A stretch of DNA of 64,000 bases, taken from the NCBI GenBank assembly GCA_017965425.1, contig JAGCPY010000003.1, forward strand, positions 1 through 64,000, given 5' to 3'. Source of the DNA: Bacteroidaceae bacterium. GTDB taxonomy: Bacteria; Bacteroidota; Bacteroidia; Bacteroidales; Bacteroidaceae. Position numbers and translations under genes: made by a program. Shown here in pieces: positions 18,340 to 41,437 of this stretch (positions within the stretch are counted from its first letter, which is position 1; each line of letters opens with the position of its first letter). The notes below the pieces were generated by a model. The model was not told where the DNA came from, made no database searches, and saw nothing but the letters and a program-made list of their open reading frames with translations.

Positions 18340-18570
18340 ATGGAACTTAAAGAATTTATTGAAGTGATTGCCGAACAATATGAGGATGTTGAATTGCAAG
18401 ATTTCACCCCAGAGACTCATTTTAAGGAATTCGATGAATGGTCTTCACTCACTTCTCTTTCCATCATCGCTACAGTTGATGATGAATTTGGTATTACGCT
18501 GAAGGGTGACGACATCCGCAAAGCGACGACTATACAGGAACTTTTTGACATAGCCAAAAGCAAAGAATAG
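18340..18570 (+). CDS. acyl carrier protein, module A, type alpha
   Basis: A 76-residue four-helix carrier protein, acidic, with the phosphopantetheine serine in EWSSLTSLS (Ser 36, in the place of the usual DSL). It would carry an acyl intermediate as a thioester in the cytoplasm. It closely resembles the ACP at 35943 (same spacing, DWSSLTALS), which defines a type alpha present once in each acyl module. The next gene's ATG is 9 bases downstream. Confidence 0.85.
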   Translation: MELKEFIEVIAEQYEDVELQDFTPETHFKEFDEWSSLTSLSIIATVDDEFGITLKGDDIRKATTIQELFDIAKSKE

Positions 18571-18579
18571 TTGGTCGAT

Positions 18580-19314
18580 ATGCAGGGCAAGAACGTCATC
18601 ATTACTGGCAGCAATCGTGGTATCGGCCGTGCGTTGGTGGAAACTTTCGTTGCGGCGGGAGCCAATGTTTGGGCTTGTGCACGTAGAGCTACGTCAGAAC
18701 ATGAATCATGGTTGCAGGAATTGTCCTCAAGTCATGGCGTATGGGTGAAACCTGTCTATTTTGATATGGCAGATGCCGATGCTGTCAATGCGGGCATACA
18801 GTCGATATTGGATGAGGGTAAGCCTGTGGATGTGCTTGTGAATAATGCAGGCGTTTCAACTGTGGGCTTACTGAGTATGAGCAAGGTGGATGACATTAAG
18901 GCTCTTTTTGAAGTCAACTTTTTCACCATGCTTCGTATTATCCAGAAGGTATCGAAGAAAATGGTCAGACAGCGCTGTGGAGCCATTGTCAATATGGGCT
19001 CGATTGCGGGCATAGAACCACAACCAGGCAAGATCGCATACGGCAGTTCAAAGGCAGCCGTGATGATGATGACCAAATGTCTTGCCAAGGAACTCGGACC
19101 GATGGGTGTCCGTGTGAACGCTATTGCCCCTGGACCTATAGAGACTGAAATGATTCACCAATATACGGATGATGTGTTGAAGAACCTTGCCGCAGAATCA
19201 GCTCTGCGTCGTCTGGGTAAAAGGGAAGAAATTGCTCAGGTAGCGCTTTTCCTGGCTTCTGACAAGGCATCTTATATTAATGGTGAGATTATCAAGGTTG
19301 ATGGAGGTCGTTGA
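18580..19314 (+). CDS. short-chain dehydrogenase, FabG-like
   Basis: A 244-residue classical SDR. Cofactor loop TGSNRGIGRA (about 9-18), NNAGVSTVG, and the catalytic S...YGSSK (Ser in NMGSIAG, Tyr/Lys in YGSSKAA). The C-terminal YINGEIIKVDGGR is typical of FabG-like 3-oxoacyl-ACP reductases. The ATG at 18580 is used instead of a TTG at 18571. Directly behind an ACP gene, it most likely reduces a 3-oxoacyl (or other keto) group bound to that ACP. A role on a keto sugar is the alternative. Confidence 0.8.
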   Translation: MQGKNVIITGSNRGIGRALVETFVAAGANVWACARRATSEHESWLQELSSSHGVWVKPVYFDMADADAVNAGIQSILDEGKPVDVLVNNAGVSTVGLLSMSKVDDIKALFEVNFFTMLRIIQKVSKKMVRQRCGAIVNMGSIAGIEPQPGKIAYGSSKAAVMMMTKCLAKELGPMGVRVNAIAPGPIETEMIHQYTDDVLKNLAAESALRRLGKREEIAQVALFLASDKASYINGEIIKVDGGR

Positions 19315-19336
19315 ATATTGAAAGTTGAGTTATCAC

Positions 19337-20164
19337 ATGAATAGAAAAATACTATCAGAAGAGGAAATCAAGGCATTGTGCAAACGGATGCGGCTTCATG
19401 CAATGGATATGGCATTGGCGGCTGGCAACCGGGGTGCTCATGTCAGTGGTAGCCTCTCTTGCATAGAAATATACGCGGTGCTCTATGGTGCCATTCTCAA
19501 CTACGATTTGGATAACCCGCTTTGGCAAGACCGTGATCGCTTTATTGCAGGCAAGGAACATGCCCGTCTTGCTGAATATCCAGCCCGTGCCGAGATGGGC
19601 TTCTACCCAGTGGATGTCCTCCATACTTATGAGGAGAACGACGGTTTGCTCGTCGGTCATCAGTTGCGCCGGGAATTAGGTGTGGAATATGCCTCCATGA
19701 GTTTGGGGATGGAGATGTCTTTTGTCGTTGGCAAGGCTATTCTTGCCAAGCAGACGCAACAGAAGTATCACATCTATTGTCTTTTGGGAGATGCCGAGTG
19801 TGAGGAGGGACCTGTCTGGGAAGCCTTTATTCCCGCTGCTCACTATAAATTGGACAACCTGACGGTTATCATTGACCGTAACTATATGTCTGTGGACGGT
19901 AACACGGAGGAACTGATGGCCCAGTTGGATATGCAACGTAAGATGGAGGCATTCGGATGGGAATCCGTGACGATTGATGGACACGATATTCACCAACTGA
20001 TGGAAGCCCTATCCCACAAGCCCGAAGGGCGTCCATACGCTGTCATTGCACAAACAACCAAAGGAAAAGGGGTATCTTTCATTGAAAATAAAAAGGCTTG
20101 GCATCAGGCCATCATGGGGGAGCAACTTTATCATCAGGCTATAGAAGAACTTCAGAACGCATAA
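19337..20164 (+). CDS. transketolase-like N-terminal subunit (ThDP-binding)
   Basis: A 275-residue protein matching the N-terminal third of transketolase. Marks are RGAHVSGSLSCIEIYAVLY (compare GHxxGSLSxxEI), and a ThDP/Mg motif LLGDAECEEGPVWEA...VIIDRN, where the usual GDG is GDA. The C-terminus TTKGKGVSFIE is standard. Together with the next gene it makes a split transketolase that would move a two-carbon ketol unit. Lying between an ACP/SDR pair and an ACP/ligase/KAS III set, it is probably a pathway-specific enzyme, not the pentose-phosphate one. I use the ATG at 19337. Confidence 0.85.
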   Translation: MNRKILSEEEIKALCKRMRLHAMDMALAAGNRGAHVSGSLSCIEIYAVLYGAILNYDLDNPLWQDRDRFIAGKEHARLAEYPARAEMGFYPVDVLHTYEENDGLLVGHQLRRELGVEYASMSLGMEMSFVVGKAILAKQTQQKYHIYCLLGDAECEEGPVWEAFIPAAHYKLDNLTVIIDRNYMSVDGNTEELMAQLDMQRKMEAFGWESVTIDGHDIHQLMEALSHKPEGRPYAVIAQTTKGKGVSFIENKKAWHQAIMGEQLYHQAIEELQNA

Positions 20165-20168
20165 AGTT

Positions 20169-21140
20169 ATGGCTATCAATCCCGCTTTAATCAAGGCATA
20201 CGCCAAAATGGGCCAGAAAGGTGCTGCTGCAGGCATTGGCATGATGGAGTTGGCCAAGCGTGACCCCGACATGCGGGTTGTTGTGGCTGACAGTGTGGCC
20301 ATTGCCAGTTTGGACCGTTTCTATAATAGCTATCCAGACCGCGTCATCAATGCCGGTATCGCCGAGCAAAGTATGATTGGCATAGCAGCTGGTCTCAGTT
20401 CTGAGGACGGACGGGTTGTCTATGCTTGTACTTATGCAGAGTTTGTGCTGACAAAAGCATTGGAATTTGTCCGCCATAATCTGGCCTATCATCGTTTCAA
20501 TGTCAAATTGGTAGGTAACTCTGCAGGTTTTGCGATGGAAACCCTTTCCATCTCTCATTGGGCGACGGAAGACATCTCATACGCCCGTGCTTTGCCTGGA
20601 ATGACGATACTGTCTGCTGCCGATAGTCTTGAGGCCATCAAGATGGTGGTTGCTGCACATGATATGCAGGGACCTGTATATATCCGACTATCAGGACTCT
20701 TAAATTGTCCGATGGTATATGAAAAGGATTTTGACTATCAGATTGGCAAGGCAAATACATTACGCGAAGGTGAGGATGTGACCATTATTGCGACCGGCAT
20801 GATGGTGAGAGAAGCCTTGGATGCTGCTGACTTATTGGCAAATCAAGGTGTTCATTGTCGTGTGGTGGATATGCATACCATAAAGCCGCTTGATACGGCG
20901 CTGCTTGACAACGTGATGGCTTCTTCCCGCATGATTGTGTCTGTGGAAGAACATGCAATGATTGGTGGTTTGGGAGGAGCCATTGCAGAATACATGGCAG
21001 AAAAGAATGGACGGCCTCGTCTGGTCAGAATCGGAGTCGGTGACTTCTTCTGCAAGTTGGGTGACCTTCGATTCTGTTGGGAACAACATGGCCTGACCGC
21101 ACCGCAAATAGCCGAGAGAATCAATAAAGAATTACAATAA
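20169..21140 (+). CDS. transketolase-like C-terminal subunit
   Basis: A 323-residue protein with the pyrimidine-binding and C-terminal domains of transketolase. The catalytic Glu that activates ThDP is in NAGIAEQSMIGIAAGLS. Further marks are VYACTYAEFVL, GPVYIRLSG, and a C-terminal regulatory domain starting GEDVTIIATGMMVREAL. It starts 4 bases after the N-terminal subunit, so the two should be made together. The pair could form an acyloin or ketol, or pass a two-carbon unit to an ACP; the substrate is unknown. Confidence 0.85.
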   Translation: MAINPALIKAYAKMGQKGAAAGIGMMELAKRDPDMRVVVADSVAIASLDRFYNSYPDRVINAGIAEQSMIGIAAGLSSEDGRVVYACTYAEFVLTKALEFVRHNLAYHRFNVKLVGNSAGFAMETLSISHWATEDISYARALPGMTILSAADSLEAIKMVVAAHDMQGPVYIRLSGLLNCPMVYEKDFDYQIGKANTLREGEDVTIIATGMMVREALDAADLLANQGVHCRVVDMHTIKPLDTALLDNVMASSRMIVSVEEHAMIGGLGGAIAEYMAEKNGRPRLVRIGVGDFFCKLGDLRFCWEQHGLTAPQIAERINKELQ

Positions 21141-21160
21141 TAATGTTTATACATACTATT

Positions 21161-21397
21161 ATGACAAACATCGAAAAATACAACAATGCCTTTGTTGAGG
21201 GTCTGGAGATTCCTGTAGAACAGGTGGAAGGATTGACGATGGAAGGGTGTGACAAGTGGGACAGCATCGGACAGATGAGCCTTATTGCTGTTCTGGAAGA
21301 TGCATTCGGCATTGAACTTGCCCCTGACGAGGTGATGGCTTTTACCAGCTATGCGGCTGGCCTTGATATTCTCAAGAATCATCAGATTGACCTATAA
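21161..21397 (+). CDS. acyl carrier protein, module A, type beta
   Basis: A 78-residue acidic carrier protein with the modified serine in KWDSIGQMSL (Ser 35). I choose the ATG at 21161, because MTNIEKYNNAF then lines up with MSNTLNTYNAVF of the beta-type ACP at 36170; an ATG at 21143 would add six residues. Its stop codon overlaps the start of the ligase gene (TAATG), which suggests that the ligase loads this ACP. Confidence 0.85.
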   Translation: MTNIEKYNNAFVEGLEIPVEQVEGLTMEGCDKWDSIGQMSLIAVLEDAFGIELAPDEVMAFTSYAAGLDILKNHQIDL

Positions 21398-22791
21398 TGC
21401 TTTTAGATTTCGACCTGAAGCCTTCAGATAAGCTTGCAGCTATTGATGATGCAGGTGCACAACTGACGTACGGCGACCTTGTCGCATTACGTGGGCAGTT
21501 GTCATCTGTGTTGCCTCCTCGTGAATTGGTATTCTGCCTCTGCGAGAACAGGGTAGGAGCCTTGGCTGGCTTCCTTGCATTGTATGATTGCAAGGATGTC
21601 TGTCTCTTGCTTAGTGCACATATCGATTCAGGGCTATTAGCTGCCTTATGCGAGACGTATCATCCCTCTTATTTCTGGATGCCAGAATCGAAAGCACCAG
21701 AATTCAACTACGACATTGTCCATAGGTTCCATGGTTATGTCCTTTGCAAGACTGGGCAGCAGGCACCTGCTATGCATGTTGATTTGTCTATGCTGATGAC
21801 GACATCTGGCACAACGGGTAGTCCCAAACTCGTCCGCCATAAGTATGGCAATATCGAGTCCAATGCCCGCAACGTGGCATCTGTTTTTGGGTGGACAGAG
21901 GACGAACGTGGCATTATTGACCTCCCCATGCAATACACGATGGGGCTGAATGTTATTTTGAGCCACCTCTATGCCGGGGCAATGGTGCTTTTGGCTGAAG
22001 CGAATCTGATGAGTCCGAAGTTATGGCAATTCATCAAAGAGAAAAAAGGCACGAACCTGACAGGCGTACCTTTCAGTTATGAGATACTTCAGCGGTTGCG
22101 CTTTACCCGGATGGATTTACCCTATCTGACAACTCTGGCAGAGGGAGGTGGAAAATTGCCTGATAGTCTGTTCAAGACCTTCGCAGAATATGCGGAAGTC
22201 TCAGGGAAGCGTTTCTTTGCCACATTCGGCACGACAGAGACATCGGCACGATTGGCCTATCTGCCGCCCAAGGATGCCGCAACACATATCGGAAGTATAG
22301 GACAGGCCATACCCGAAGGTAAATTATTGTTGGTCGACGATGATGGCTGTGAAATCACTCAGTCAGACCAAGAGGGTGAACTTCTTTACGAAGGACCCAA
22401 TGTTACTATGGGTTACGGTACATGCATTGAAGACTTGCAGAAGGGCGATGAATTCTGTGGCGTATATGCTACCGGTGATATTGCTCGTCGTGACGATGAT
22501 GGCTACTTTTATATAGTTGGCCGCAAGAAGCGTTTTCTCAAACTCTATGGGCTGCGTGTAAGTCTTGACCAAAGTGAGAAGATTATCTCTGAGCACTTTG
22601 GCGTTGAGTGTGCTTGTACTGGGGACGATACTCAAATGCGCATTTATGTGACAGATGCTCATTTGGTGGAAGATGTACAGAACCTGATGGTGGAGAAGAC
22701 AGGACTTAAGGCAAAGTCCTTTGAGGTCAAGGCAATAGATGCCATCCCCCGTTTTGAGTCTGGTAAAGTCAACTACCGTCTTCTCTCCTAA
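21397..22791 (+). CDS. adenylate-forming acyl-ACP ligase (ANL superfamily)
   Basis: A 464-residue ANL enzyme, expected to activate a carboxylic acid as acyl-AMP and load it onto an ACP. The phosphate loop is TTSGTTGSPKLVRH (about 132-145), the adenine motif TFGTTETSAR, the ribose/hinge motif YATGDIARRDDDGYFYIVGR, and the C-terminal catalytic Lys probably in ESGKVNYRLL. It is shorter than acyl-CoA synthetases (about 550), as are many small-acid ANL enzymes. It overlaps the beta ACP by one base. It is a paralogue of the ligase at 36.4 kb. Confidence 0.8.
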   Translation: MLLDFDLKPSDKLAAIDDAGAQLTYGDLVALRGQLSSVLPPRELVFCLCENRVGALAGFLALYDCKDVCLLLSAHIDSGLLAALCETYHPSYFWMPESKAPEFNYDIVHRFHGYVLCKTGQQAPAMHVDLSMLMTTSGTTGSPKLVRHKYGNIESNARNVASVFGWTEDERGIIDLPMQYTMGLNVILSHLYAGAMVLLAEANLMSPKLWQFIKEKKGTNLTGVPFSYEILQRLRFTRMDLPYLTTLAEGGGKLPDSLFKTFAEYAEVSGKRFFATFGTTETSARLAYLPPKDAATHIGSIGQAIPEGKLLLVDDDGCEITQSDQEGELLYEGPNVTMGYGTCIEDLQKGDEFCGVYATGDIARRDDDGYFYIVGRKKRFLKLYGLRVSLDQSEKIISEHFGVECACTGDDTQMRIYVTDAHLVEDVQNLMVEKTGLKAKSFEVKAIDAIPRFESGKVNYRLLS

Positions 22792-22851
22792 TGGCTAAGG
22801 ATTATAAACTTACAAATTGCTTAATTTCTCTATAAATCAACATATCAAAGC

Positions 22852-23916
22852 ATGGCTTTCTTTAAGGTAGATAATGTCAACATCGCGGGTATTGCAGCCT
22901 GTGTGCCGCCTAAGATGGTGGAGAATATGGATTCTGATCTCATCGAGGATAAGGACGAACTGCGTAAGTATATTGAAACCACAGGCGTTCAACGTCGCTA
23001 CATTGCAGAGGACGGAATATGCTCTTCTGACTTGTGCTTGTGCGCAGCAGAGAAACTTATCGCAGAAATCGGATGGGACAAGCAGGACATAGAATGCCTT
23101 ATATTGGTGACCCAGACCCCTGATTACATTTTCCCCGCTACAGCTTGCGTCCTGCAGAACCGTCTGGGACTGTCTACGAACTGTCTCAGTTTTGACATCA
23201 CCATGAGTTGTCCTGGATGGATATACGGCCTCTCCGTCATGTCTTCCATGCTCAGTGCGGGTAGGATGAAGAAGGGACTGTTGTTGGTAGGCGAGACCTC
23301 CACCAAGGCCAAGTCCCCTTATGACCGTGTGAATCTTCTGGCTGGAGATGCAGGCACGGCAACGCTTTTGGAATTCAAGGAAGGTGCAAATCCTCTGTAT
23401 TTCAGTATGCACTCCGACGGCAGCAACTTCAAGTCGCTCATCATCCCAGATGGTGGCTATCGGAATCCGACTACGAAGGAGTCGTTTGACTATTATATGT
23501 GTAAGGATGGGATTCAGCGTAACCGTCTACAGTCCAATATGGAAGGGGAAGATATATTGTCCTTTGCCATGCACACCGCTCCGAAATGTATCAAAGGGTT
23601 GCTTGAGCACTACGAGATTCCGAAAGAGGAAATAGACTACTTCCTCATTCATCAGGCCAACCAGATGATTAACAAACTCATACAAAAACGTCTGAGAGTG
23701 GATGATGCCCATTGTCCTTACAACATCGCCGACTTCGGTAACACTTCTTCCACAACTATTCCCCTGATGATAGTCAATAAGCTTCAAGCAGAAATCGGCG
23801 GAAAGAAAGTCGTCGCTTGTGGTTTCGGAACAGGATTGGCATGGGGAGCAATTGCAACACAGTTGGCTGAGGATGTCAAGGTAATAGATTTGGTTCATTA
23901 TTCGTCTGCTGAATAA
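22852..23916 (+). CDS. 3-oxoacyl-ACP synthase III family (KAS III)
   Basis: A 354-residue thiolase-fold enzyme with the complete KAS III triad: Cys 120 in FDITMSCPGWIYG, His about 267 in LIHQANQM, and Asn about 297 in DFGNTSSTTIP. It is expected to condense an acyl primer with malonyl-ACP, or to act as an acyl transferase as some pathway-specific KAS III enzymes do. It closes module A, 60 bases after the ligase. It is paralogous to the protein at 37818 (the same CVP start and the same sequence frame around the Cys). Confidence 0.85.
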   Translation: MAFFKVDNVNIAGIAACVPPKMVENMDSDLIEDKDELRKYIETTGVQRRYIAEDGICSSDLCLCAAEKLIAEIGWDKQDIECLILVTQTPDYIFPATACVLQNRLGLSTNCLSFDITMSCPGWIYGLSVMSSMLSAGRMKKGLLLVGETSTKAKSPYDRVNLLAGDAGTATLLEFKEGANPLYFSMHSDGSNFKSLIIPDGGYRNPTTKESFDYYMCKDGIQRNRLQSNMEGEDILSFAMHTAPKCIKGLLEHYEIPKEEIDYFLIHQANQMINKLIQKRLRVDDAHCPYNIADFGNTSSTTIPLMIVNKLQAEIGGKKVVACGFGTGLAWGAIATQLAEDVKVIDLVHYSSAE

Positions 23917-23921
23917 ATTAT

Positions 23922-25457
23922 ATGGCAGGATATAAGCAGAATACAAAGTTGATGGCGAAGAACTCGGCCTATCTGTATGTACAGATGGCCGTGAGGATGA
24001 TCATCGGTCTTTATACGGTTCGTGTCATCCTTCACGCGCTTGGTGCAGAGGACTATGGTATCTACAATGTGGTAGCGGGTTTCGTGACAATGTTCACGTT
24101 CGTCACCAGCACGTTGGTCTCTGCCTCACAGCGTTTTTTCGCATACGCGCTAGGACGTGGCGAACATGAATTGCTGAATCGTTATTTCAATGTATCACTA
24201 CTCTGTTACATTATCCTCAGTATAATCCTTTTTGTGGTTATCGAAGCTTTTGGATGGTGGTTTGTCAACTATAAAATGGTGATACCACCTGAGCGCCTAT
24301 ATGCTGCTAATTGGGTATTGCAGATTTCCATTGTTGCCTTTATCATTCGTATTCTGGCGGTTCCTTCTTCTGCCATGTTAGTGGCGAACGAAAAGATGAT
24401 AGTCTATGCTTTTGTACATGTGCTTGATGCTTTTCTTCTACTTGGTATTGCCTTTTTACTTCAGGTCGTCACTTCTGATCGTTTGATAGTATATGCATGG
24501 TGTATGCTTGGCATCTCATTGGTGAGTAGCATCATCTTTATAGGAATGTGCCGAAGTAGTTACAATGAAGCTTCGCGTATACGATTACGTTGGGATGTAG
24601 GACTGCTCAAAGAACTGTTGAGCTATTGTGGGTGGTATATGTTTGGGACGATGGCTACGGTCGTGCGTGAGCAAGGGCTCAATATACTTCTTAATGTGTT
24701 TTTCAACCCAATTGTGAATGCCGCCCGGGCTATAGCCTATCAGATTAACAATGCCATCAATCAGTTTGTAAATAGCTTCTATCAAGCCGTACGTCCTCAA
24801 ATCACCAAACTTACTGCGGCAGAGGAGAATGAGAAGATGTTGTCTTTGGTTTCTTCATCGTCCGTTATTAGTTTCCTGTTGATGTGCTTAGTGTCTATTC
24901 CGATGCTTGTGGAGATGCCATTCGTGTTATCAGTGTGGTTGCATGACTATCCTGAATATACAGTCATATTTGCTCGACTTGTCATCATAACGGCTATGAT
25001 AGATACGCTTGGTATGCCTTTAACGACGGCTGTTTGTTCGTTGGGGCGTATTCGAAACTATCAGGTTATTACAGGAAGTATACTTATCCTCAATCTGCCT
25101 GTTTCTTATGTGTTGCTACGACTGTGCGCTACACCATATATTGTATTCTATGTTTCCATTGTTCTCTCATGTGTGACACAAGTTGTTCGGGTTTTATTTA
25201 TGAAGAAAATGTTCCGAATGTCAATCTTGCGCTATACCCGTGAAGTCATATTTCGTACTTTTTTAATCTCAATAGTCTCTTTTACTGCTACATATTTCTT
25301 GAGTCAGGCCGTTGCCAATGACTTTTGGTCACATTTGATTGTCATAATGCTGTCCATCTTATTTATTGTTCTATTATCATTCTATGGTGGTTTTACAAGA
25401 GTACAACGTGAAGCAATGGTTGCTATGGCACGCAAGAAACTAAATCGTCACAAATGA
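23922..25457 (+). CDS. wzx: Wzx-type polysaccharide flippase (MATE/MOP superfamily)
   Basis: A 511-residue integral membrane protein with about 14 hydrophobic segments and the O-antigen flippase pattern: an N-terminus with KNSAYLYVQMAVRMIIGLYT, then ALGAEDYGIYNVVAGFV. It should move undecaprenyl-linked repeat units from the cytoplasmic to the periplasmic face. It starts 5 bases after the KAS III gene, which ties the acyl module to polysaccharide assembly at the operon level. Confidence 0.85.
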   Translation: MAGYKQNTKLMAKNSAYLYVQMAVRMIIGLYTVRVILHALGAEDYGIYNVVAGFVTMFTFVTSTLVSASQRFFAYALGRGEHELLNRYFNVSLLCYIILSIILFVVIEAFGWWFVNYKMVIPPERLYAANWVLQISIVAFIIRILAVPSSAMLVANEKMIVYAFVHVLDAFLLLGIAFLLQVVTSDRLIVYAWCMLGISLVSSIIFIGMCRSSYNEASRIRLRWDVGLLKELLSYCGWYMFGTMATVVREQGLNILLNVFFNPIVNAARAIAYQINNAINQFVNSFYQAVRPQITKLTAAEENEKMLSLVSSSSVISFLLMCLVSIPMLVEMPFVLSVWLHDYPEYTVIFARLVIITAMIDTLGMPLTTAVCSLGRIRNYQVITGSILILNLPVSYVLLRLCATPYIVFYVSIVLSCVTQVVRVLFMKKMFRMSILRYTREVIFRTFLISIVSFTATYFLSQAVANDFWSHLIVIMLSILFIVLLSFYGGFTRVQREAMVAMARKKLNRHK

Positions 25458-25464
25458 GCAGGAC

Positions 25465-26694: not shown

Positions 26695-26734
26695 GGTAGC
26701 AATGGAAATGCTGTTGAAAAATGAATATATATAT

Positions 26735-27847: not shown

Positions 27848-27905
27848 TAAAGCTGCTAATTTAGTTAGTCAAAAAATCTGTCTATTAAAGTTCGGATAAT
27901 AATCT

Positions 27906-30061: not shown

Positions 30062-30107
30062 GAAATAAGATCGTCTATTGTCAACCATTGAGTAATATTT
30101 AAGAGAT

Positions 30108-32323: not shown

Positions 32324-32922
32324 GCAATATTTGTTTCCGCACCTTTGAAGAGTGCGATATTGATGCTATCTATCGATGGAAAAATGACGACGAGTTGAAC
32401 CGACTCGCTGTGGGACTGAATAAACGTGTAAGCCGTGACGATGTTGCCAAATGGGTACGTAGCAAGATGCCCCATAATCCGTATGAGGTTTTCTGGGCGA
32501 TATGCACCAACGATGAGGAACAGCGTATTATCGGCTACGCCTGCCTGACAAATATACACTATATCAACAGTTCTGCTTACTTCTCTGGTATCATGATTGG
32601 TGACCCGGCATTTCACGATGGTATCACGTGGATAGAGGTCAACAAGTTTGTTCTGGAATATGTGTTTGAGCGATTGGGCTTGAACCGCATGTATGGCAGT
32701 GCTATGATGGAACAGGAGCAGTCTAACGCTATGGGGCGCGCATTGTTCCTTCAGACCGAAGGTGTGGAGCGTCAGGCGGTTTACAAGAACGGGCGATTTT
32801 ATGATGTGGAGTTACATTCTATACTCAAGAGCGAATATTTTGAACACAAAGCTAAAGGCGAGTATGAGACGGCCTGTATCCTAAAACGTCTTGTGCGTCT
32901 GAAGAAAGATAACAAAAAATAA
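32320..32922 (+). CDS. GNAT N-acetyltransferase (RimJ/L- or PseH-like)
   Basis: A 200-residue GNAT protein of the Acetyltransf_3 type: ICFRTFEECDIDAIYRWKND at the start, RIIGYACLTNIHYINSSAYF in the central strands, and YVFERLGLNRMYGSAM before the last part. Proteins like this in sugar loci acetylate an amino sugar (PseH is the model). It is coupled to the ATP-grasp gene by a four-base overlap, so its substrate is probably the product of that pathway. The acyl donor might be acetyl-CoA or, given the surroundings, an acyl-ACP. Confidence 0.75.
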   Translation: MSNICFRTFEECDIDAIYRWKNDDELNRLAVGLNKRVSRDDVAKWVRSKMPHNPYEVFWAICTNDEEQRIIGYACLTNIHYINSSAYFSGIMIGDPAFHDGITWIEVNKFVLEYVFERLGLNRMYGSAMMEQEQSNAMGRALFLQTEGVERQAVYKNGRFYDVELHSILKSEYFEHKAKGEYETACILKRLVRLKKDNKK

Positions 32923-32928
32923 GAAATT

Positions 32929-34068
32929 ATGGGAAATATTCTCCATCTTTGTTTCGACGGTAATTTCATTGATAATACGAGTGCCGTCTTTGAGCATTTC
33001 TATCCAGGCCGTAACACGTTCTGTATGCTCCGACGAAAAACAATCAAGGGGCAGATGCAAGATATGAAGAATGCCGTTTGGCTGGATTCATCCCGTCCAG
33101 ATCCGACGTTGCTGGAGCGCATCTGTCAGGAACATCAAGTGGATACGATTATGATGCATGGATTACATCCCCATTACAGCAAGGCTTTGCCCTTACTTAG
33201 TGCGGGTCATAGTCGTCGTATTTTCTGGATTTTCCACGGCTACGAGCTATACTATGCTTTAGGCGAGAAGGGATGGTGGAAGCCTAATGATAATGATAGT
33301 ATTTTTTCCCGAAAGAATTGGATTTCACCCACCCGCTATAACTATTATCTGCGCAAACTGATGGGCGAAAAAATCTACTATGATCATCTCGTCGAGGCAT
33401 TGCCTTATATTGATTATTTCTGCTTTTGGCTACGTGAAGACTACGAATTATTCCAACGTTATTTCCCCTCAGAAATCAAATTTCGGCAGTTCCAATATAA
33501 GGCGCGCTATCGTGAAGAGGAACATGGTACAGACCCTGTGGATTTCAATAAAGATGCAACCACGATTCGTGTCAACCATTCTGCATCCAAGACGGCCAAT
33601 CACGACACCTTGATGCGACTTCTAGCGCAAATAGACCGTGACAATGTCCTACGCAAGGAATTTCCCCTATCTTATGGCAGCACATACATACGCAAAGACG
33701 TTATAAAGATGGGACAACGTCTCTTTGGTAAGCAGTTTGTCCCATTGTTGGACTATGTTAGCTTCGATGACTATCTTCATTCTTTATCTAAGGTGGGCAT
33801 CGCAATCTTCGGTCATCGACGCCAGGAGGCTACGGGGAATATATCACTTCTGCTGAAATTGGGTGCCAAGGTTTTCCTCCGTGAATGCAATCCTGTATTG
33901 TCTTACTATCGTCGGATGGGTTACCACATTTATTCTGTGGAGAATGATTTGAAAGGTATGGATGACCTTCGTCCGTTGACACCCGAACAGATGCAACATA
34001 ATGCTGATACAGCCACCCGGAATCGTGTCTATTATGAAGATTTTATGCCCCAGTTGTTGGATGCCTGA
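32929..34068 (+). CDS. GT56-like transferase (WecF type, 4-amino-4,6-dideoxyhexose)
   Basis: A 379-residue protein resembling WecF, the TDP-Fuc4NAc:lipid II transferase of enterobacterial common antigen (GT56). Marks are VNHSASKTANHDTLMRLLAQ (about 215-234; compare GNSGDxSNxHIxAL), YIRKDVIKMGQRLFG, PLLDYVSFDDYLHSLSKVGI and IFGHRRQEATGNISLLLKLG. Because GT56 enzymes use a dTDP-linked 4-amino-4,6-dideoxyhexose, this supports the assignment of the rmlA-rmlB-VioA products as donor. No signal peptide is seen; it should act at the inner membrane. It follows the GNAT gene by 6 bases. Confidence 0.75.
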   Translation: MGNILHLCFDGNFIDNTSAVFEHFYPGRNTFCMLRRKTIKGQMQDMKNAVWLDSSRPDPTLLERICQEHQVDTIMMHGLHPHYSKALPLLSAGHSRRIFWIFHGYELYYALGEKGWWKPNDNDSIFSRKNWISPTRYNYYLRKLMGEKIYYDHLVEALPYIDYFCFWLREDYELFQRYFPSEIKFRQFQYKARYREEEHGTDPVDFNKDATTIRVNHSASKTANHDTLMRLLAQIDRDNVLRKEFPLSYGSTYIRKDVIKMGQRLFGKQFVPLLDYVSFDDYLHSLSKVGIAIFGHRRQEATGNISLLLKLGAKVFLRECNPVLSYYRRMGYHIYSVENDLKGMDDLRPLTPEQMQHNADTATRNRVYYEDFMPQLLDA

Positions 34069-35218
34069 CGTATGGAATAGGATGGCTCTTGTCATCTTCC
34101 TATGGTTTGTTACGGTATGCGGTCATCCCGTCATACCGGCCTTGGACTATTCAGGACGTTTAGACTCAGCTGTGACGGCATTGATGACTCGCTATGAAGC
34201 AGTCGGTCTCAGTGTGGCTGTGGTGAAATCCAATAGAATTTTTTATCATCATTCTTGGGGTGTTCGCGACAAGGAGAAAATGATACCACTTCAGGATGAT
34301 GACGTGTTCCGCCTCTTTTCTATTTCCAAATCCTTTATTTCCACGGCCATTATGCAACTGGTGGAGCAGAAACGCTTGGCTTTGGACGATGACATACGAC
34401 GATATTTGCCGTGGGTGAACCGCAATCCTCGCTTCCCAGATATTCCCATAACCATAGAAATGCTCCTTTGCCACCGTTCCAGTATCAATGATTCTCAGGG
34501 CTATTTGAGTGATTTTGATATGCTGCGACCAGAACGTAATATGTCTTATGGCCAATGTTATAATCAGGAGCGCCCAGGTAGCGCATATTATTACAGTAAT
34601 GTCAACTATAATCTTTTGGGTGCGGTCATAGAGAAGGTGACGCAAATGCGCTTCGACGAATACATCATTGCAAACATCTTGCACCCTCTTGGTTTGCATG
34701 GCTTCTATGATATGTCTCAGATGGGTAAACGTCATTTTGCTCAAGCCTATCAGTATAGTACGCCGAAGCAAGGTTACCAGCGAAATGCGTCTGCTTATGC
34801 TCCTCTATCTAAAGAATTGTCCTCATACGTTTTGGGTGAAACTACACCTTTGCTATCACCATGTGGCGGTCTAAAATTGAATGCTGCAGAGTTGGCAGAG
34901 TACATGATGATGCACATGAACAAAGGGAAGCTTAGAGGACATCGGATAGTAAAGAAAAAAAGTGAACGGCAAATGTGGAAAGTCCGTTCTACAGAGAGTA
35001 ATTATGGTTTGGCTTTAATCCACTATTATGATATCATTGACGGTGAAGAGTTAATCGGTCATAGAGGTGCAGGATATGGCATCAATACATCCATGTTTTT
35101 CAATCCCAAAAAGAAATACGGTTTTGTCATTCTATGTAATGGTGTCAATACATCACTTATTGACCATTATCCTTTCCATCGGACATTGGTTAGAATACTA
35201 TATGAGAATATAATATAA
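34061..35218 (+). CDS. serine hydrolase, beta-lactamase/DD-peptidase fold (class C-like)
   Basis: A protein of about 385 residues with an N-terminal signal peptide or anchor (MALVIFLWFVTVCG), so probably periplasmic. The active-site set is complete: S-x-x-K in FRLFSISKSF (Ser 87, Lys 90), YSN in YYYSNVNYN (about 176), and GHRGAG (about 333) in the place of KTG. The start could be 34061 (overlapping the GT56-like gene by 8 bases) or 34082. The family holds peptidases, esterases and acyltransferases such as LovD. Within an acyl-sugar locus, an esterase or transacylase acting on the exported glycan is possible. Confidence 0.75.
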   Translation: MPDVWNRMALVIFLWFVTVCGHPVIPALDYSGRLDSAVTALMTRYEAVGLSVAVVKSNRIFYHHSWGVRDKEKMIPLQDDDVFRLFSISKSFISTAIMQLVEQKRLALDDDIRRYLPWVNRNPRFPDIPITIEMLLCHRSSINDSQGYLSDFDMLRPERNMSYGQCYNQERPGSAYYYSNVNYNLLGAVIEKVTQMRFDEYIIANILHPLGLHGFYDMSQMGKRHFAQAYQYSTPKQGYQRNASAYAPLSKELSSYVLGETTPLLSPCGGLKLNAAELAEYMMMHMNKGKLRGHRIVKKKSERQMWKVRSTESNYGLALIHYYDIIDGEELIGHRGAGYGINTSMFFNPKKKYGFVILCNGVNTSLIDHYPFHRTLVRILYENII

Positions 35219-35260
35219 TCTGGTTGAATATAATCTTTCATGTTTTTCCTTTTCTGATAT

Positions 35261-35920
35261 ATGGATATGGTATCCCCTATTGTTATAGTTGGTGCAGGCG
35301 GTTTCGGTCGCGAGGTGGCCTCCCTGCTTAAACGTATCAACCGACAAAGTCCTACTTGGGAGTTGTTGGGATTCTATGATGACGATACTCGGACGAAGCC
35401 TCGTGGTAGTCGCAATGAGTATGGCGATATCCTTGGAACCGTGGATGATCTCAATCAGGTCACTACACCAGTGGCTGCCATTCTGGCCATTGGTTTCCCC
35501 AATATGCTGAAATCTGTTAAAGACAGACTCACGAACCCGCTTATTTCTTTTCCCAACATTATCGCGCCAGAGGCAAGCATCCTCGATCCAGAGAATTACC
35601 AAATGGGACAGGGAAATATCCTGAGCAGTTTTGCATCCATCAGTTGCAATGTTCGGTTAGGTAATTTCAACGTAATTAACAACCGCACTTCTTTCGGACA
35701 TGATGCGGTGGTTGGCGACTTCAATACTTTTATGACCGCATGTCGTATCAGCGGTGGTACTGTTATTGGAAACCAGAATCGTTTTGGCGTGGGGGCTATT
35801 GTTATTCCCGGCGTGAAGATTGGCACGGGCGTGACGGTATCACCGGGCAGCGTCATCATGCGTAAACCAAAAGATAATTCTACTTATATTGGCAATCCTG
35901 CCAAACAGTTCAAAATTTGA
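35261..35920 (+). CDS. NeuD/PglD-family sugar acyltransferase (VioB-like candidate)
   Basis: A 219-residue protein with the two-part NeuD/PglD build: an N-terminal Rossmann-like domain (IVIVGAGGFGREVASLL, 7-23) and a C-terminal left-handed beta helix (LGNFNVINNRTSFGHDAVVG, then VIGNQNRFGVGAIVIPGVKI). His in SFGHD is the likely base. PglD, VioB and WeiG-type enzymes acylate the C4 amine of dideoxy-amino sugars, which fits the VioA-like and GT56-like genes. It lies 22 bases before two ACP genes, so it may use an acyl-ACP as donor instead of acetyl-CoA; that is inference. Confidence 0.75.
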   Translation: MDMVSPIVIVGAGGFGREVASLLKRINRQSPTWELLGFYDDDTRTKPRGSRNEYGDILGTVDDLNQVTTPVAAILAIGFPNMLKSVKDRLTNPLISFPNIIAPEASILDPENYQMGQGNILSSFASISCNVRLGNFNVINNRTSFGHDAVVGDFNTFMTACRISGGTVIGNQNRFGVGAIVIPGVKIGTGVTVSPGSVIMRKPKDNSTYIGNPAKQFKI

Positions 35921-35942
35921 TAAACCCTTTTAATAAGTAACT

Positions 35943-36167
35943 ATGACACTTAATGAATTTATGGATGTCCTTGCAGAACAATTTGAGGACACGGAAAGAG
36001 AAGCATTTACCCCTCAGACCCGTTTTAAGGAATTGGATGACTGGTCGTCGCTGACCGCCCTCTCAGTTATTGCTATGGCTGATGAGGAGTGCGGCGTGAG
36101 CATCAACAGCGATGTCGTCAACAACGCCCAGACGGTGGAGGATTTGTACAACCTTATATTTGCGTAA
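35943..36167 (+). CDS. acyl carrier protein, module B, type alpha
   Basis: A 74-residue carrier protein very like the ACP at 18340: MTLNEFMDVLAEQFED against MELKEFIEVIAEQYED, with the modified serine in DWSSLTALS (Ser 36). It is followed after 2 bases by a beta-type ACP. It presumably holds an acyl group for the KAS III or SDR of module B. Confidence 0.85.
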   Translation: MTLNEFMDVLAEQFEDTEREAFTPQTRFKELDDWSSLTALSVIAMADEECGVSINSDVVNNAQTVEDLYNLIFA

Positions 36168-36169
36168 GT

Positions 36170-36412
36170 ATGAGTAATACATTGAATACTTACAATGCTG
36201 TCTTCCGAAAAACTTTTGGTTTGTCGGAAGAGCAGTTGTCCCAATTGGAGTATAAGGTATACCCAGAATGGAACTCCATGGCACACCTTGCACTGATCTC
36301 GGCTTTGGAAGAGGAACTGGACATCAATTTTGAAGCAGATGACATTTTCGCCTTTAAGTCCTATGATCAGGGTAAGGACTTGTTACACGAACGTTTCGGA
36401 CTAAACTTCTGA
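36170..36412 (+). CDS. acyl carrier protein, module B, type beta
   Basis: An 80-residue carrier protein with the serine in EWNSMAHLAL (Ser 36). The ATG at 36170 is chosen because it aligns with the beta-type ACP of module A and follows the alpha ACP stop; a longer frame upstream runs through the alpha gene in another phase. One base separates its stop from the ligase ATG. Its serine surroundings (WNSM) differ from the alpha type (WSSL), so the two ACPs of a module probably have different partners. Confidence 0.85.
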   Translation: MSNTLNTYNAVFRKTFGLSEEQLSQLEYKVYPEWNSMAHLALISALEEELDINFEADDIFAFKSYDQGKDLLHERFGLNF

Positions 36413-36413
36413 T

Positions 36414-37814
36414 ATGTTTAATCTCCAATCTTTCGCGGACCACATTGTTTCCGTCCATCCTGATGGCACCCATCATACATATGGTGAATTAGCTCAAGAT
36501 ACACAAGAGCTAAATGGTCACTTGCAGGCTCATGCACTTGTTTTTTGCTTGTGCGAGAACAACTACGAGTCGCTTGTCGGCTACGTGGCTATGGTTAATC
36601 ATGGCAATGTAGCCCTGATGTTGGATGCTCACATTGAGGAATCTGCATTTGACACGTTGTGCCGTACTTATCGTCCTCCATATATTTGGAGACCTGTAAA
36701 TGGAATCAGGGAAGATAAAGATGGCAAGGTCGTTTACAGGTTGGGAAGTTATGCGCTGATATCCACTGGCGAGGTGCAGAACAAGCCTCTGCCAGATGAA
36801 TTGTCCGTGCTGTTGACCACATCGGGAAGTACAGGTTCACCTAAGTTGGTACGTCTTTCGAAGAAAAATTTATTGAGTAATGCCCAATCTATTGTCGAGT
36901 ATTTGCACATTACAGCAGACGAACGGCCTATCACGGGACTACCTATGTACTATTCGTTCGGATTATCGATCATCAATTCACATCTGCTGGTAGGTGCCAC
37001 GTTACTCATGACATCAGACTCTTACGTCCAACGAGAGTTTTGGGTGTTTGCTAATGAACAGGGATTCACCTCTTTCTCCGGTATACCATACACCTTCGAG
37101 ATCCTGAAGAAACTGAGATTTTGGTCGATGAAGTGTCCCACCCTAAAAACGCTGACTCAGGCAGGAGGAAAGCTGAACAACGAATTATTACAGTTTTTTA
37201 TTGAGAATGGGCGTGAGAAAGGTGTTACCTTCTATCTCATGTACGGACAGACTGAGGCCACGGCGCGTATGAGCTATTTGCCACCAGAACAGTCTCTCTC
37301 CAAATTAGGCAGCATCGGCAAAGGCATTCCTGGCGGACACTTCTATTTGCAGGACGATGATGGTAGCATCATAGATGTTCCGAACGTCGTAGGCGAGTTG
37401 GTTTACGAAGGAGACAACGTGAGTCTTGGATATGCAGAAAATCCAGAAGACCTCTACAAGCAGGATGAGAACCATGGGATTTTACATACTGGCGATTTGG
37501 CCTACAGGGATGATGACGGATTCTATTACATCGCAGGGCGGAAAAAGAGATTCCTCAAGCTGTTCGGAAACCGCGTTAGTCTGGACTACATAGAGACACT
37601 GTTAAAGGCATACCTTAAGGAGTGCGTTTGTGTGGGCAATGATTCCCAACTCATTGTATATACGACAGACGATGAATTTAATGCTGACATGATTATTGAC
37701 TTCCTTGTCAATAGAACAAAAATCTTGCGCTCTGTATTCAGCGTTAGGCATATCAACCAGATCCCACGCTCAGATACAGGAAAAATCCTTTATAAAGAAT
37801 TACCTATAGAATAA
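36414..37814 (+). CDS. adenylate-forming acyl-ACP ligase, module B
   Basis: A 466-residue ANL enzyme, paralogue of the one at 21397. Phosphate loop TTSGSTGSPKLVRL (about 137-150), MYGQTEATARM, HTGDLAYRDDDGFYYIAGR, then KKRFLKLFGNRVSLDYIE, with a C-terminal Lys in RSDTGKILYKEL. Both ligases share the unusual start in which a short N-terminal domain holds ALVFCLCENNYESLVG. Differences in the pocket (for example MYYSFGLSIINSHLL against MQYTMGLNVILSHLY) allow different acids. Substrate not known. Confidence 0.8.
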   Translation: MFNLQSFADHIVSVHPDGTHHTYGELAQDTQELNGHLQAHALVFCLCENNYESLVGYVAMVNHGNVALMLDAHIEESAFDTLCRTYRPPYIWRPVNGIREDKDGKVVYRLGSYALISTGEVQNKPLPDELSVLLTTSGSTGSPKLVRLSKKNLLSNAQSIVEYLHITADERPITGLPMYYSFGLSIINSHLLVGATLLMTSDSYVQREFWVFANEQGFTSFSGIPYTFEILKKLRFWSMKCPTLKTLTQAGGKLNNELLQFFIENGREKGVTFYLMYGQTEATARMSYLPPEQSLSKLGSIGKGIPGGHFYLQDDDGSIIDVPNVVGELVYEGDNVSLGYAENPEDLYKQDENHGILHTGDLAYRDDDGFYYIAGRKKRFLKLFGNRVSLDYIETLLKAYLKECVCVGNDSQLIVYTTDDEFNADMIIDFLVNRTKILRSVFSVRHINQIPRSDTGKILYKELPIE

Positions 37815-37817
37815 AAT

Positions 37818-38888
37818 ATGGCACATCAAATCATTCGAAATGTGGCAACCGTTGGTATCACGACGTGCGTGCCATCTGCTATTGAGGAGAACATCAGCCA
37901 GCCTTTCTTCAAGGAAGGGGAGGCAGAAAAAGTCATCGCTTCCACGGGTATTGAAAGACGTCGTATCGCTCCCCCTAACGTTACAGCAAGTGATCTTTGT
38001 TTCAAGGCTGCAGAAAAACTCCTTGAGGAAATAGGATGGGCACGCGAAGATATCGACGGCCTCATTTTTGTTAGTCAGTCGCAGGATTATCTGATGCCTG
38101 CTACCTCATGTATCCTCCAGCATCGGTTGGGCTTGCCCGTGAGTTGTTGTACCTTTGACATCTCTTATGGTTGCTCAGGATGGGTATACGGTATGAGCGT
38201 CGCCTCCTCTATGTTGGCTGCAGGAACGATGAAAAAAGTGTTGCTGCTGGTAGGAGACACGCCTTCCAAGTTCAAGTCACGCAAGGACAAGACAGCTTGG
38301 CCGCTCTTTGGAGATGCTGGTACGGCAACAGCATTGGAATACCAACAGGGAGCACCTGAGATGTTTTTCTCTCTCTTTGTTGATGGTTCAAAATTTGATT
38401 CCATCATTATCCGTGATGGAGGATGTCGTCATCCGTTTTCTACCAGTTCGTTGGAGGAAAAAGAGATAGAAGAAGGAGTCGTCCGACGTCCGCTTGACTC
38501 CGTGATGAATGGCATGAATGTTTTTTCTTTCGGCTTAAAACGTGCTCCAGAAGTGGTTAACGATGTCTTAGCTCTTTCGCAGCATCAAGTTGACGATCCC
38601 GACTATTACATCTTCCATCAAGCCAATATGTTCATGAATGAGAAAATACGCAAAAAGTTGGGCATCCCCGCAGAGAAAGTTCCATACTCGATGAAAGACT
38701 ATGGCAATACCAGCTGTGCAACCATTCCTCTCACCATCAATACGACCTTTGGTACGGCAGACATGCTACGTGGGAAAACTGTTGTTGGCACAGCTTTTGG
38801 CGTAGGACTGTCATGGGGTAGTGTGTTACTTACATTGGATAACTTAAAACACTTATCACTCATAGAATACAATGAAGAATCCATTTAG
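37818..38888 (+). CDS. 3-oxoacyl-ACP synthase III family, module B
   Basis: A 356-residue KAS III protein. The triad is complete: Cys 119 in FDISYGCSGWVYG, His in YIFHQANMFMN, Asn in MKDYGNTSCATIP. It is clearly related to the module A enzyme but divergent, so both are retained and probably not redundant. It starts 3 bases after the ligase, and its 3' end overlaps the SDR gene by 17 bases, which points to tight co-expression. Confidence 0.85.
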   Translation: MAHQIIRNVATVGITTCVPSAIEENISQPFFKEGEAEKVIASTGIERRRIAPPNVTASDLCFKAAEKLLEEIGWAREDIDGLIFVSQSQDYLMPATSCILQHRLGLPVSCCTFDISYGCSGWVYGMSVASSMLAAGTMKKVLLLVGDTPSKFKSRKDKTAWPLFGDAGTATALEYQQGAPEMFFSLFVDGSKFDSIIIRDGGCRHPFSTSSLEEKEIEEGVVRRPLDSVMNGMNVFSFGLKRAPEVVNDVLALSQHQVDDPDYYIFHQANMFMNEKIRKKLGIPAEKVPYSMKDYGNTSCATIPLTINTTFGTADMLRGKTVVGTAFGVGLSWGSVLLTLDNLKHLSLIEYNEESI

Positions 38889-39621
38889 CCTTGAAGGCAA
38901 GAGAATATTAGTCACCGGCGCTGCATCAGGCATCGGACGGTGTACAGCCATTAAAGCATCCGAAATGGGAGCAACCCTTGTCCTTGTGGATCTTAATGAA
39001 GAGCGAATGCAAGAAACGTTGGGAATGTTGGCTTCTGGCGACCATAGCATGTTCGCAGCCGATCTCACACAGACAGAAAACTTGGAAAAACTGGCCGCCA
39101 GTATAGAACCCTTGGACGGGTTGGTCAACTGTGCGGGCATCGGATTGACCCTTCCTTTCAAGTTTTGTGGGGAGGACGAACTGAAGCGTATCATGGCTAT
39201 CAACTTTTTCGCTCCTGTACTGCTCACACAGACGCTCGTCAAGAAGAAAAAGATAAACAAGGGAGCTTCCATCGTTTACATGGCTTCCATTGACGGAACC
39301 GTCACAGGTCATATTGGGAATTCCATGTACTCTGCTACAAAGGGAGCCATTCTTGGATCCGTTCGTTCGCAAGCGCTGGAGATGGCCGCTCGTGGCATAC
39401 GTGTCAACTGTGTGTCACCTGCCCGAGTCAATACTCCTCTTATCCAAAATCGCAACAACATCTCTGCCGAGCAGGTAAAAGCCAATATGGAACTCTACCC
39501 CATGAAACGCTATGCTGAACCGGAAGAGATCGCTTACTATATTATCTATCTACTCTCAGACACCAGTACGTATACGACAGGTTCCAACCTCGTCATAGAC
39601 GGAGGCTTCACGATAGCTTGA
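38872..39621 (+). CDS. short-chain dehydrogenase, module B
   Basis: A 249-residue classical SDR with TGAASGIGRCTA (about 15-26), VNCAGIG and the catalytic S...YSATK (Ser in YMASIDG). The end TTGSNLVIDGGFTIA is FabG-like. It should be the 3-oxoacyl-ACP reductase of module B. It overlaps the KAS III gene by 17 bases. It is only distantly like the SDR of module A at 18580, so the two modules acquired or diverged their reductases separately. Confidence 0.8.
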   Translation: MKNPFSLEGKRILVTGAASGIGRCTAIKASEMGATLVLVDLNEERMQETLGMLASGDHSMFAADLTQTENLEKLAASIEPLDGLVNCAGIGLTLPFKFCGEDELKRIMAINFFAPVLLTQTLVKKKKINKGASIVYMASIDGTVTGHIGNSMYSATKGAILGSVRSQALEMAARGIRVNCVSPARVNTPLIQNRNNISAEQVKANMELYPMKRYAEPEEIAYYIIYLLSDTSTYTTGSNLVIDGGFTIA

Positions 39622-39684: not shown

Positions 39685-40140
39685 ATGAAAAGGACACTAC
39701 GTCAACACATTAGTAGATTTGTAAGAGGTTTCTATACCTATGGATATTTGAAATACTTGAAAGGTATGGATATCGGTAAAAATGTATCTGTCTCAAAATC
39801 CGCCACGATGGAGAGGGCTTATCCAAAATCTGTACATATAGGTGATAACACCCGTATTTCAATAGAGGCAATGGTCTTGGGGCATGACTATTTTCGTGGT
39901 AAGGAGCAATCTGATACCTATATTGGACATAACACTTCCATTGGGGGCAGAGCAATCATTCTACCTGGTCTAAAAATTGGGAATCATTGTTTTGTTGGCG
40001 CAGGATCTGTTGTAACAAAAGATGTTCCTGATCATTGTCTTGTGGCTGGAAATCCTGCAAAGATAGTTCGTGTAGGCATAGAACTTAATGACCACTATCA
40101 AATAATTAATCACGGACATAAGCCAGAGATAGATAAATAA
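39685..40140 (+). CDS. hexapeptide-repeat O-acetyltransferase
   Basis: A 151-residue left-handed beta-helix protein of the maltose/galactoside O-acetyltransferase type. Repeats include VHIGDNTRIS, YIGHNTSIGGRAIIL, KIGNHCFVGAGSVV and the closing KDVPDHCLVAGNPAKIVR; the catalytic His is probably in MVLGHDYF. It is the last gene before the long non-coding element, 63 bases after the SDR gene. It is likely to O-acetylate a sugar of the polysaccharide. Confidence 0.8.
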   Translation: MKRTLRQHISRFVRGFYTYGYLKYLKGMDIGKNVSVSKSATMERAYPKSVHIGDNTRISIEAMVLGHDYFRGKEQSDTYIGHNTSIGGRAIILPGLKIGNHCFVGAGSVVTKDVPDHCLVAGNPAKIVRVGIELNDHYQIINHGHKPEIDK

Positions 40141-41435: not shown

Positions 41436-41437
41436 AT

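Follow-up and report, generated by a model that had tools for sequence, protein, structure and literature searches.

We analyzed a 64,000-nucleotide stretch of DNA from a Bacteroidaceae bacterium (GenBank assembly GCA_017965425.1, contig JAGCPY010000003.1, positions 1 to 64,000; hereafter the window, lying in contig 22 of an assembly with 96 contigs and 3.7 Mb in total) and conclude, with a probability of roughly two in three, that it carries a Wzx/Wzy locus for a surface glycan in which a dTDP-4-amino-4,6-dideoxyhexose would be N-acylated with a short hydroxyacyl group built on acyl carrier proteins (ACP). The genes from 16165 to 40140 are tightly spaced and all lie on the + strand. Two sets of acyl-building genes, module 1 (18340-23916) and module 2 (35943-39621), are embedded in this single same-strand locus, and module 1 contains in addition the two genes of a split transketolase (TK), TKN and TKC. 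As a whole the pathway would be of the known hydroxyacyl amino-sugar kind, the transketolase step being the part that could be new chemistry. This enzyme, which received a passing mention in an earlier reading of the same DNA (the original prediction), is the most unusual part of the locus.

In the pathway that we propose, RmlA, RmlB and a DesI/VioA-type aminotransferase would produce dTDP-4-amino-4,6-dideoxyhexose. An ANL ligase would load a small acid onto ACPbeta, a KAS III would condense the loaded acid with malonyl-ACPalpha, FabG-like SDRs would reduce the keto groups and a NeuD/VioB-like enzyme would hand the acyl group over to the 4-amino sugar. Within module 1 the thiamine diphosphate (ThDP)-dependent TKN/TKC and SDR1 would act on the ACPbeta-bound group, the transketolase extending an acceptor tethered to an ACP, rather than a sugar phosphate, by a two-carbon unit that may be a ketol. 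We infer every one of these reactions, the order of the steps and the service of both modules to one sugar. Taken alone, the action of the transketolase on an ACP falls somewhat short of even odds. We are less confident about the unit transferred, since the type of enzyme found in the window also has another residue in place of a donor-side glycine. The fuller proposal, in which a ThDP enzyme derived from a split transketolase adds a two-carbon unit (probably a ketol) to a tethered acyl group or aldehyde and thereby contributes to a sugar-like, polyhydroxylated acyl chain for the amino sugar, is thus put forward as tentative and on balance doubtful.

Two acyl modules in one glycan locus

Module 1 comprises ACPalpha1 (18340..18570, motif EWSSL, PP-binding 25.2 bits), the FabG-like reductase SDR1 (18580..19314, adh_short_C2 5e-57; best NCBIfam match 3oxo_ACP_reduc, below the family cut-off), the split transketolase-like N-subunit TKN (19337..20164, Transketolase_N 7.8e-32; PDB 6yak 6e-56) and C-subunit TKC (20169..21140, Transketolase_C 1.2e-29, Transket_pyr 2e-23; PDB 6yaj 1e-62), ACPbeta1 (21161..21397, motif KWDSI, PP-binding 24.4 bits), the ANL ligase LIG1 (21397..22791, AMP-binding 2.1e-36) and the KAS III KAS1 (22852..23916, ACP_syn_III_C 9e-20). 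Module 2 is composed of ACPalpha2 (35943..36167, motif DWSSL, PP-binding 25.5 bits), ACPbeta2 (36170..36412, motif EWNSM), the ANL ligase LIG2 (36414..37814, AMP-binding 2.4e-40), KAS2 (37818..38888, ACP_syn_III_C 2e-26) and the reductase SDR2 (38872..39621, adh_short_C2 8.6e-53). Every gene named in the original prediction was recovered in place and on the + strand, and its description of two ACPalpha/ACPbeta/ligase/KAS III/SDR sets with complete Cys-His-Asn triads was confirmed by Pfam and by motifs. All module proteins score above the curated Pfam cut-off except ACPbeta2, which has no Pfam match and was assigned by its resemblance to ACPbeta1 (7e-11). Both KAS III retain the Cys, His and Asn residues (CxGW, HQAN, GNTS), both ligases the P-loop and the C-terminal GK motif, and both SDRs Y-x-x-x-K. 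The attachment serine is present at the motif in all four ACPs, three of which exceed the PF00550 cut-off. The usual ACP motif is D-S-L; both ACPalpha proteins have S-S-L, and 14 relatives have S-S-L or S-S-I (11), G-S-L (2) or N-S-L (1). The module ACPs are additional, since two of the five PP-binding matches in the assembly lie outside the window. One PPTase-family match was found in the assembly.

Both predicted modules thus exist, although they are not two copies of one: their ligases are 42% and their KAS III 44% identical (ACPalpha 47%, ACPbeta 31%, SDR 27.5%), and module 1 lacks an SDR2. The KAS1 homologues of nine named genomes with TK-bearing loci are 79-86% identical to KAS1 in eight cases and 72% identical in Bacteroides oleiciplenus. 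In trees of 20 ligase and 23 KAS rows, LIG1 and KAS1 fall within the clade of the TK-bearing cassettes. LIG2 and KAS2 do not, and form long branches whose own placement is unsure. Because the cross-genome identities and the trees both separate module 1 from module 2, the locus combines two acyl sets of different origin. A local or tandem duplication of one module was rejected, KAS1 and LIG1 being closer to their counterparts in other genomes than to KAS2 and LIG2. At E≤1e-40 a KAS2-like protein was detected in 8 of all 61 genomes searched, but in no other genome of the same genus (0 of 36); at E≤1e-70 it is present in 21 of 395 genomes of the phylum, and ACP/KAS/SDR sets as such are therefore widespread. 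The nearest solved relatives of the ligase, an oxalate-CoA ligase (9.5e-26) and a malonyl-CoA ligase (9.8e-22), are distant and match mid-protein only, and were not trusted as a guide to the substrate.

Module 1 is a recurring cassette

Ten loci were fetched when GTDB genomes were scanned with KAS1, a search that reaches only close relatives. The gene set that had been proposed for a search across genomes does recur as far as module 1 is concerned: TK genes are present in 9 of these loci and missing from the tenth, that of a Balneolaceae. When the loci were extended to 20-40 kb, the order SDR1-TKN-TKC-ACPbeta-LIG-KAS was contiguous in all nine named Bacteroidales genomes, among them one whose record bears the name of a cultured strain, Bacteroides oleiciplenus YIT 12058 (G824; G and L numbers denote compared genomes and loci). 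It is to be noted that many of the compared genomes are metagenome assemblies. ACPalpha-SDR2 stands directly 5' of the cassette in five of the nine, whereas in G822 it is separated from the cassette by about 5 kb of sugar genes, and an additional KAS together with SDR2 is found in three (G818, G823 and G825). A second SDR (SDR2) belongs to the same cluster in all nine cases, while the only SDR2 of the window sits in module 2. Each of the nine carries one LIG1-like ligase within 20-40 kb. At E≤1e-50 such a ligase was found in 8 of 393 genomes of the order, at most four candidates being scored per genome, and only the genome of the window has two copies. Gene content, gene order and recurrence are observed directly. 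They would fit a mobile cassette common to Bacteroidales, many of them from the rumen, and joined to amino-sugar loci of the Rml, pseudaminate and FdtA types.

We compared 16 copies of the cassette transketolase: those of the window and the nine named genomes, those of G765, G522, G663 and G485, and two in G780. An SDR1 homologue is in the cluster in 15 of the 16 loci and so is an ACP, the exception being G663, whose locus begins inside TKN. A loader is found in all 16, an ANL ligase in 15 and FkbH (PF21211), which we take to make glyceryl-ACP elsewhere, in one, G780:C4. Locus L123 of G780 (6396-11363) reads TKN-TKC-SDR1-FkbH-ACP-MaoC-MBOAT, and a complete cassette is found in that genome as well. 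A KAS III could be seen in 12 of the 16 loci. Because SDR1, transketolase, ACP and loader co-occur in this manner, the simplest reading would be that they form one unit and that the acceptor of the transketolase is tethered to an ACP. LuxE and LuxC follow in four loci (G522, G663, G780:C9 and G485; the LuxC of G663 is a phmmer match only), and in G780 and G485 they are fused in a protein of about 800 amino acids (L124:5811-8282, L125:11528-13936). No LuxC-type acyl reductase was present among the 30 window proteins scanned.

The transketolase type is narrowly distributed. A profile of ten cassette TKC sequences matched 204 of the 393 order genomes at E≤1e-60 and only four at E≤1e-150; two further genomes (three copies) scored from 1e-104 to 1e-119 and the best of the remainder 2.6e-89. 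Among 395 genomes of the phylum, only that of the window had this type at E≤1e-88. Four of the 393 order genomes share the transketolase type (6 genomes) and the LIG1-like ligase (8 genomes), for which P=1e-6; this value is indicative only, the profile having included sequences from three of these four genomes, which had been identified through the ligase, and candidates per genome being limited. In the remaining two genomes of the transketolase type, more distant ligases adjoin the TK genes.

The split transketolase keeps its catalytic residues and lacks its phosphate pocket

The nearest solved sequence to TKN/TKC is the split transketolase of Carboxydothermus (6yak/6yaj). The cassette enzymes were compared with 24 ordinary split TKCs for which loci were returned and with 12 ordinary TKNs, the host's own transketolase serving as the reference of the TKC alignment. 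The catalytic residues E411 and H473 are present in 16/16 cassette and 24/24 ordinary TKCs. On the TKN side, H66, D155, N185 and H261 are kept in all 16 cassette copies, H100 in 15, and H26 in all 15 copies that cover that stretch; the window enzyme retains all eight residues. Replacement or loss was directly observed at a second group of positions, R358, S385, H461, D469 and R520, which we take to bind the phosphate and hydroxyl groups of the sugar. S385, H461 and D469 are replaced in 16/16 cassette TKCs and kept in 24/24 ordinary ones, and R520 is absent from the cassette copies (13 copies, 2 more, and that of L124) and present in all 24 ordinary TKCs. R358 is unaligned (gap) in the 16 cassette TKCs and kept in the 24 ordinary ones, as Lys in 7. 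A profile made from the 24 ordinary TKCs aligns the window enzyme alike, with Ala at R358, the R358 end, with a Lys close by, being the least sure part of this alignment. These patterns suggest that the cassette transketolase should still use ThDP and is not expected to bind a phosphorylated sugar in the customary manner.

The sugar side of the locus and the transfer of the acyl group

Ahead of module 1 lie an RmlA-like glucose-1-phosphate thymidylyltransferase (16165..17085, NTP_transferase 5e-77) and an RmlB-like dTDP-glucose 4,6-dehydratase (17133..18266, GDP_Man_Dehyd 2.7e-91, Epimerase 3.7e-66). The DegT aminotransferase of the DesI/VioA type (26732..27847, PF01041 1e-95) has a single PDB match at E≤1e-60, 2po3 (1e-66), which is listed as '4-dehydrase' and presumably is DesI, the dTDP-4-keto-6-deoxyglucose 4-aminotransferase. 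The amino group of the sugar would then probably be at position 4. The candidate N-acyltransferase (35261..35920, PglD_N 1.2e-9; NeuD_NnaD 3.5e-43, below the family cut-off) has VioB (7txp, 1.7e-22) as its best PDB match, and its gene ends 22 bases 5' of ACPalpha2. A NeuD homologue lies within about 4 kb in 11 of 34 short KAS loci besides the window's own (10 genomes), and NeuD homologues stand beside ACP genes in the window, G808, G822 and G539. The predicted transfer of a putative ACP-bound acyl group to a probable 4-amino sugar is thereby supported by comparison, as it is by 2po3, by VioB and by the described relatives discussed below.

The cassette is attached to several kinds of amino-sugar genes, not one. 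A homologue of RmlA or RmlB can be seen in the window and in G819, G820, G821, G825, G826, G765 and G780:C9. G820 has a pseudaminate-type set (PF02719, DegT, CTP_transf_3, GNAT and NeuB), with genes for a PF02522 protein (aminoglycoside acetyltransferase family) and a DUF4910 protein separating NeuB from the cassette. In B. oleiciplenus, NeuB was identified by Pfam and the other neighbours look like PseB/C/F/G/H by eye; the PseG-like protein, the only one of that set checked, had no Pfam match. A double FdtA stands beside the TK unit of G765. In G818, a FabD-type protein (PF00698) is encoded ahead of the ACPalpha genes, which fits malonyl extension. These differing neighbours and the FabD-type protein fit a transferable cassette that supplies acyl donors, uses malonyl extension and is paired with differing acyltransferases.

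Between the modules, the original prediction had placed a flippase, a polymerase, the aminotransferase and a GT56-like transferase. Pfam supports the Wzx-like flippase (23922..25457, MatE 25.6 bits against a cut-off of 24.9, Polysacc_synt narrowly below its cut-off, 11 hydrophobic segments), the aminotransferase and the GT56-like glycosyltransferase (32929..34068, PF07429 4.7e-8, 33 bits, cut-off 25). The probable Wzy polymerase (25465..26694) is assigned from 8 hydrophobic segments and its place, with no Pfam, NCBIfam or PDB match in sequence searches; its homologues stand behind KAS or Wzx in six relatives. The prediction passed over several further proteins of this stretch: a pair of ATP-grasp proteins, a pair of divergent DegT-like proteins, a GNAT and a member of the beta-lactamase family. 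From 27906 to 32323, ATP-grasp ligase 1 (27906..29108, ATP-grasp_4 1.3e-12) and ATP-grasp ligase 2 (31196..32323, ATP-grasp_4 3e-24) flank DegT-like protein 1 (29105..30061), which has no family match and is homologous to its neighbour (5.6e-17), and DegT-like protein 2 (30108..31199, PF01041 1.7e-4, 21.3 bits, cut-off 19.8). Neither DegT-like protein had a credible match, by sequence, among solved structures. An ATP-grasp 1 homologue follows an aminotransferase homologue ahead of the acyl cassette in G774 and G826. These proteins may make or attach an amino acid.

Weighing the proposed pathway against alternatives

Several observations weigh against the pathway proposed above. The assignment of the amino group to position 4 is drawn from family resemblance, the two ATP-grasp proteins offer an alternative amide-forming route, and only one of the nine named TK cassettes (G822) has a NeuD homologue within 20-40 kb. 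The TK unit occurs without KAS III in G765, G522, G663 and G780:C4, and ligase/SDR1/ACPbeta sets occur without transketolase in G774, G539 and G808, so that the order of the steps is not forced; a TK-less ligase locus with ACPbeta and LuxE/LuxC is also found in G501. Finally, G114 is Met in 10, Leu in 1 and Gly in 5 of the 16 cassette TKNs (Met in the window) and Gly in all 12 ordinary ones, and G119 is Glu in 11 of 16, the window included, and kept in 12/12 ordinary TKNs. This change in two glycines of the thiamine site, shared by the window and ten close relatives, is a second alteration besides that of the phosphate site. H66, H100, G114 and H473 are described as donor-binding, and DXPS has Phe in place of H100 (available text of PMC7661550). 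Because G114 and G119 are replaced, the cassette transketolase may use another donor; the conserved His100 counts against pyruvate, while the replaced G114 leaves pyruvate possible.

An ordinary hydroxyacyl pathway, in which modules 1 and 2 would perform two malonyl extensions, as has been proposed for 3,5-dihydroxyhexanoyl, and the transketolase would be a bystander or supply a precursor, is unlikely. Two or more KAS III do occur together in G818, G823, G825, G780:C9 and G485, and the available text of PMC6519341 describes two KAS, WfpC and WfpE of Flavobacterium psychrophilum, for a dihydroxyhexanoyl group. However, the TK genes lie between SDR1 and ACPbeta in all nine named cassettes, and a conserved altered active site would be needless in a bystander.

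We consider it improbable that TKN/TKC and SDR1 instead attach a branch of two carbons to a 4-keto sugar bound to a nucleotide, in the manner of the PDH-E1-like pairs that act on paulomycose and related sugars, with the ACPs serving a separate acylation. An RmlB-made 4-keto sugar is available at this locus, the altered donor-side glycine would permit a donor such as pyruvate, two-carbon branches of deoxysugars are made by ThDP enzymes (PMC4802897, in part), and an Actinoplanes polysaccharide cluster is reported with split TK and DegT genes (PMC13390465, in part). Nevertheless, the ACP and the loader accompany the transketolase whichever sugar genes are present, no sugar-nucleotide gene was recognised, by queries and by eye, in the 20 kb of G780:C4, and the transketolase type keeps His100 in 15 of 16 copies, against the Phe of DXPS.

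That the N-acyl group is an amino acid supplied by the ATP-grasp and DegT-like proteins, the ACP modules making an O-linked or lipid-like decoration, is likewise hardly probable: the presence, between the modules, of two ATP-grasp genes and two additional DegT-like genes, the grouping seen in G774 and G826 and the liposugar suggested from ACP, ligase, LuxE and LuxC genes (PMC7874193 and PMC4875605, in part) speak for it, but the NeuD gene directly precedes ACPalpha2, and no KAS I/II or fatty-acid dehydratase was found among the 30 window proteins scanned, which makes a long lipid chain made here alone unlikely.

Other genes of the locus and its flanks

A GNAT acetyltransferase (32320..32922, Acetyltransf_3 4e-11) follows ATP-grasp ligase 2. 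A beta-lactamase-family serine hydrolase with an N-terminal hydrophobic segment (34082..35218, PF00144 1.6e-57; SxxK, YxN and HxG motifs; start codon uncertain) lies downstream of the GT56-like gene; in L050 its homologue stands after DegT-like 1 and ahead of GNAT and the cassette. Behind SDR2 lies a hexapeptide (LbH) acetyltransferase (39685..40140, Hexapep 6e-12). Downstream, a small nucleotidyltransferase/HEPN-like gene pair was recognised by eye at 41085-41815. Visual inspection of positions 1-15000, upstream, likewise pointed to a reading frame resembling a transposase and to another set of glycan genes, with a G+C content of 0.41 as against 0.58 in the right flank.

Comparison with known systems

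The literature on these systems was available to us in part. The viosamine island of Pseudomonas syringae (vioA, vioS, acp, vioR, vioB) likewise combines a 4-aminotransferase, a KAS III, an ACP, a reductase and VioB, and its product is N-(3-hydroxybutyryl) viosamine; its seven listed genes include no ANL ligase, second ACP or transketolase, and it serves flagellin (PMC3927599). Within the Bacteroidota, the O-antigen R-group genes wfpC-wfpG of F. psychrophilum likewise encode two KAS, an ACP, a reductase and a PglD-like acyltransferase, with 3,5-dihydroxyhexanoyl on a 4-amino sugar as the predicted product; the sugar nucleotide there is UDP-QuiNAc4N, and a ligase or transketolase is not named in the available text (PMC6519341). 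In Vibrio cholerae O1, wbeL, which is predicted to act in tetronate synthesis, is required for a normal O antigen, whose 4-amino-4,6-dideoxyhexose carries tetronate (PMC3441752). The island of Aeromonas Group II and those for enterobacterial flagellins likewise contain an ACP, a 3-oxoacyl-ACP reductase and an AMP ligase, and differ in carrying LuxE and LuxC; the word 'transketolase' is absent from both main texts as available (PMC7874193, PMC4875605). The enzyme of Carboxydothermus hydrogenoformans, with ordinary transketolase activity according to the available text of PMC7661550, shares with the window enzyme its two subunits and catalytic residues; in the alignment it retains the stretch with His461 and Asp469, which is missing from the window enzyme.

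The four loci with TK and LuxE/LuxC (G522, G663, G780:C9 and G485) look like a bridge to the flagellin islands. For V. cholerae O1, where the sugar is perosamine, we take wbeL to encode an acyl ligase and assume a LuxC-like reductase among the tetronate genes; of such tetronate-type features, the window has the ligase and ACP and lacks LuxC. We know of no transketolase among those tetronate genes. None was found in such gene sets in the available texts of PMC3927599, PMC6519341, PMC3441752, PMC7874193 and PMC4875605. Among the titles and opening abstract lines listed in a search of open-licence papers, we found no link between transketolase and ACP in glycan biosynthesis, a result that argues only weakly for absence.

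Serotype, and recognition by phages or antibodies, can depend on the acyl groups that surface amino sugars carry, as indicated by the available parts of the work on F. psychrophilum and V. cholerae. Direct testing is possible, since one genome with the cassette is recorded under the name of the cultured strain Bacteroides oleiciplenus YIT 12058. If our reading is correct, a portable acyl cassette with a retargeted transketolase would add a C-C bond-forming step to glycan biosynthesis and would help to predict glycan structures from genomes.

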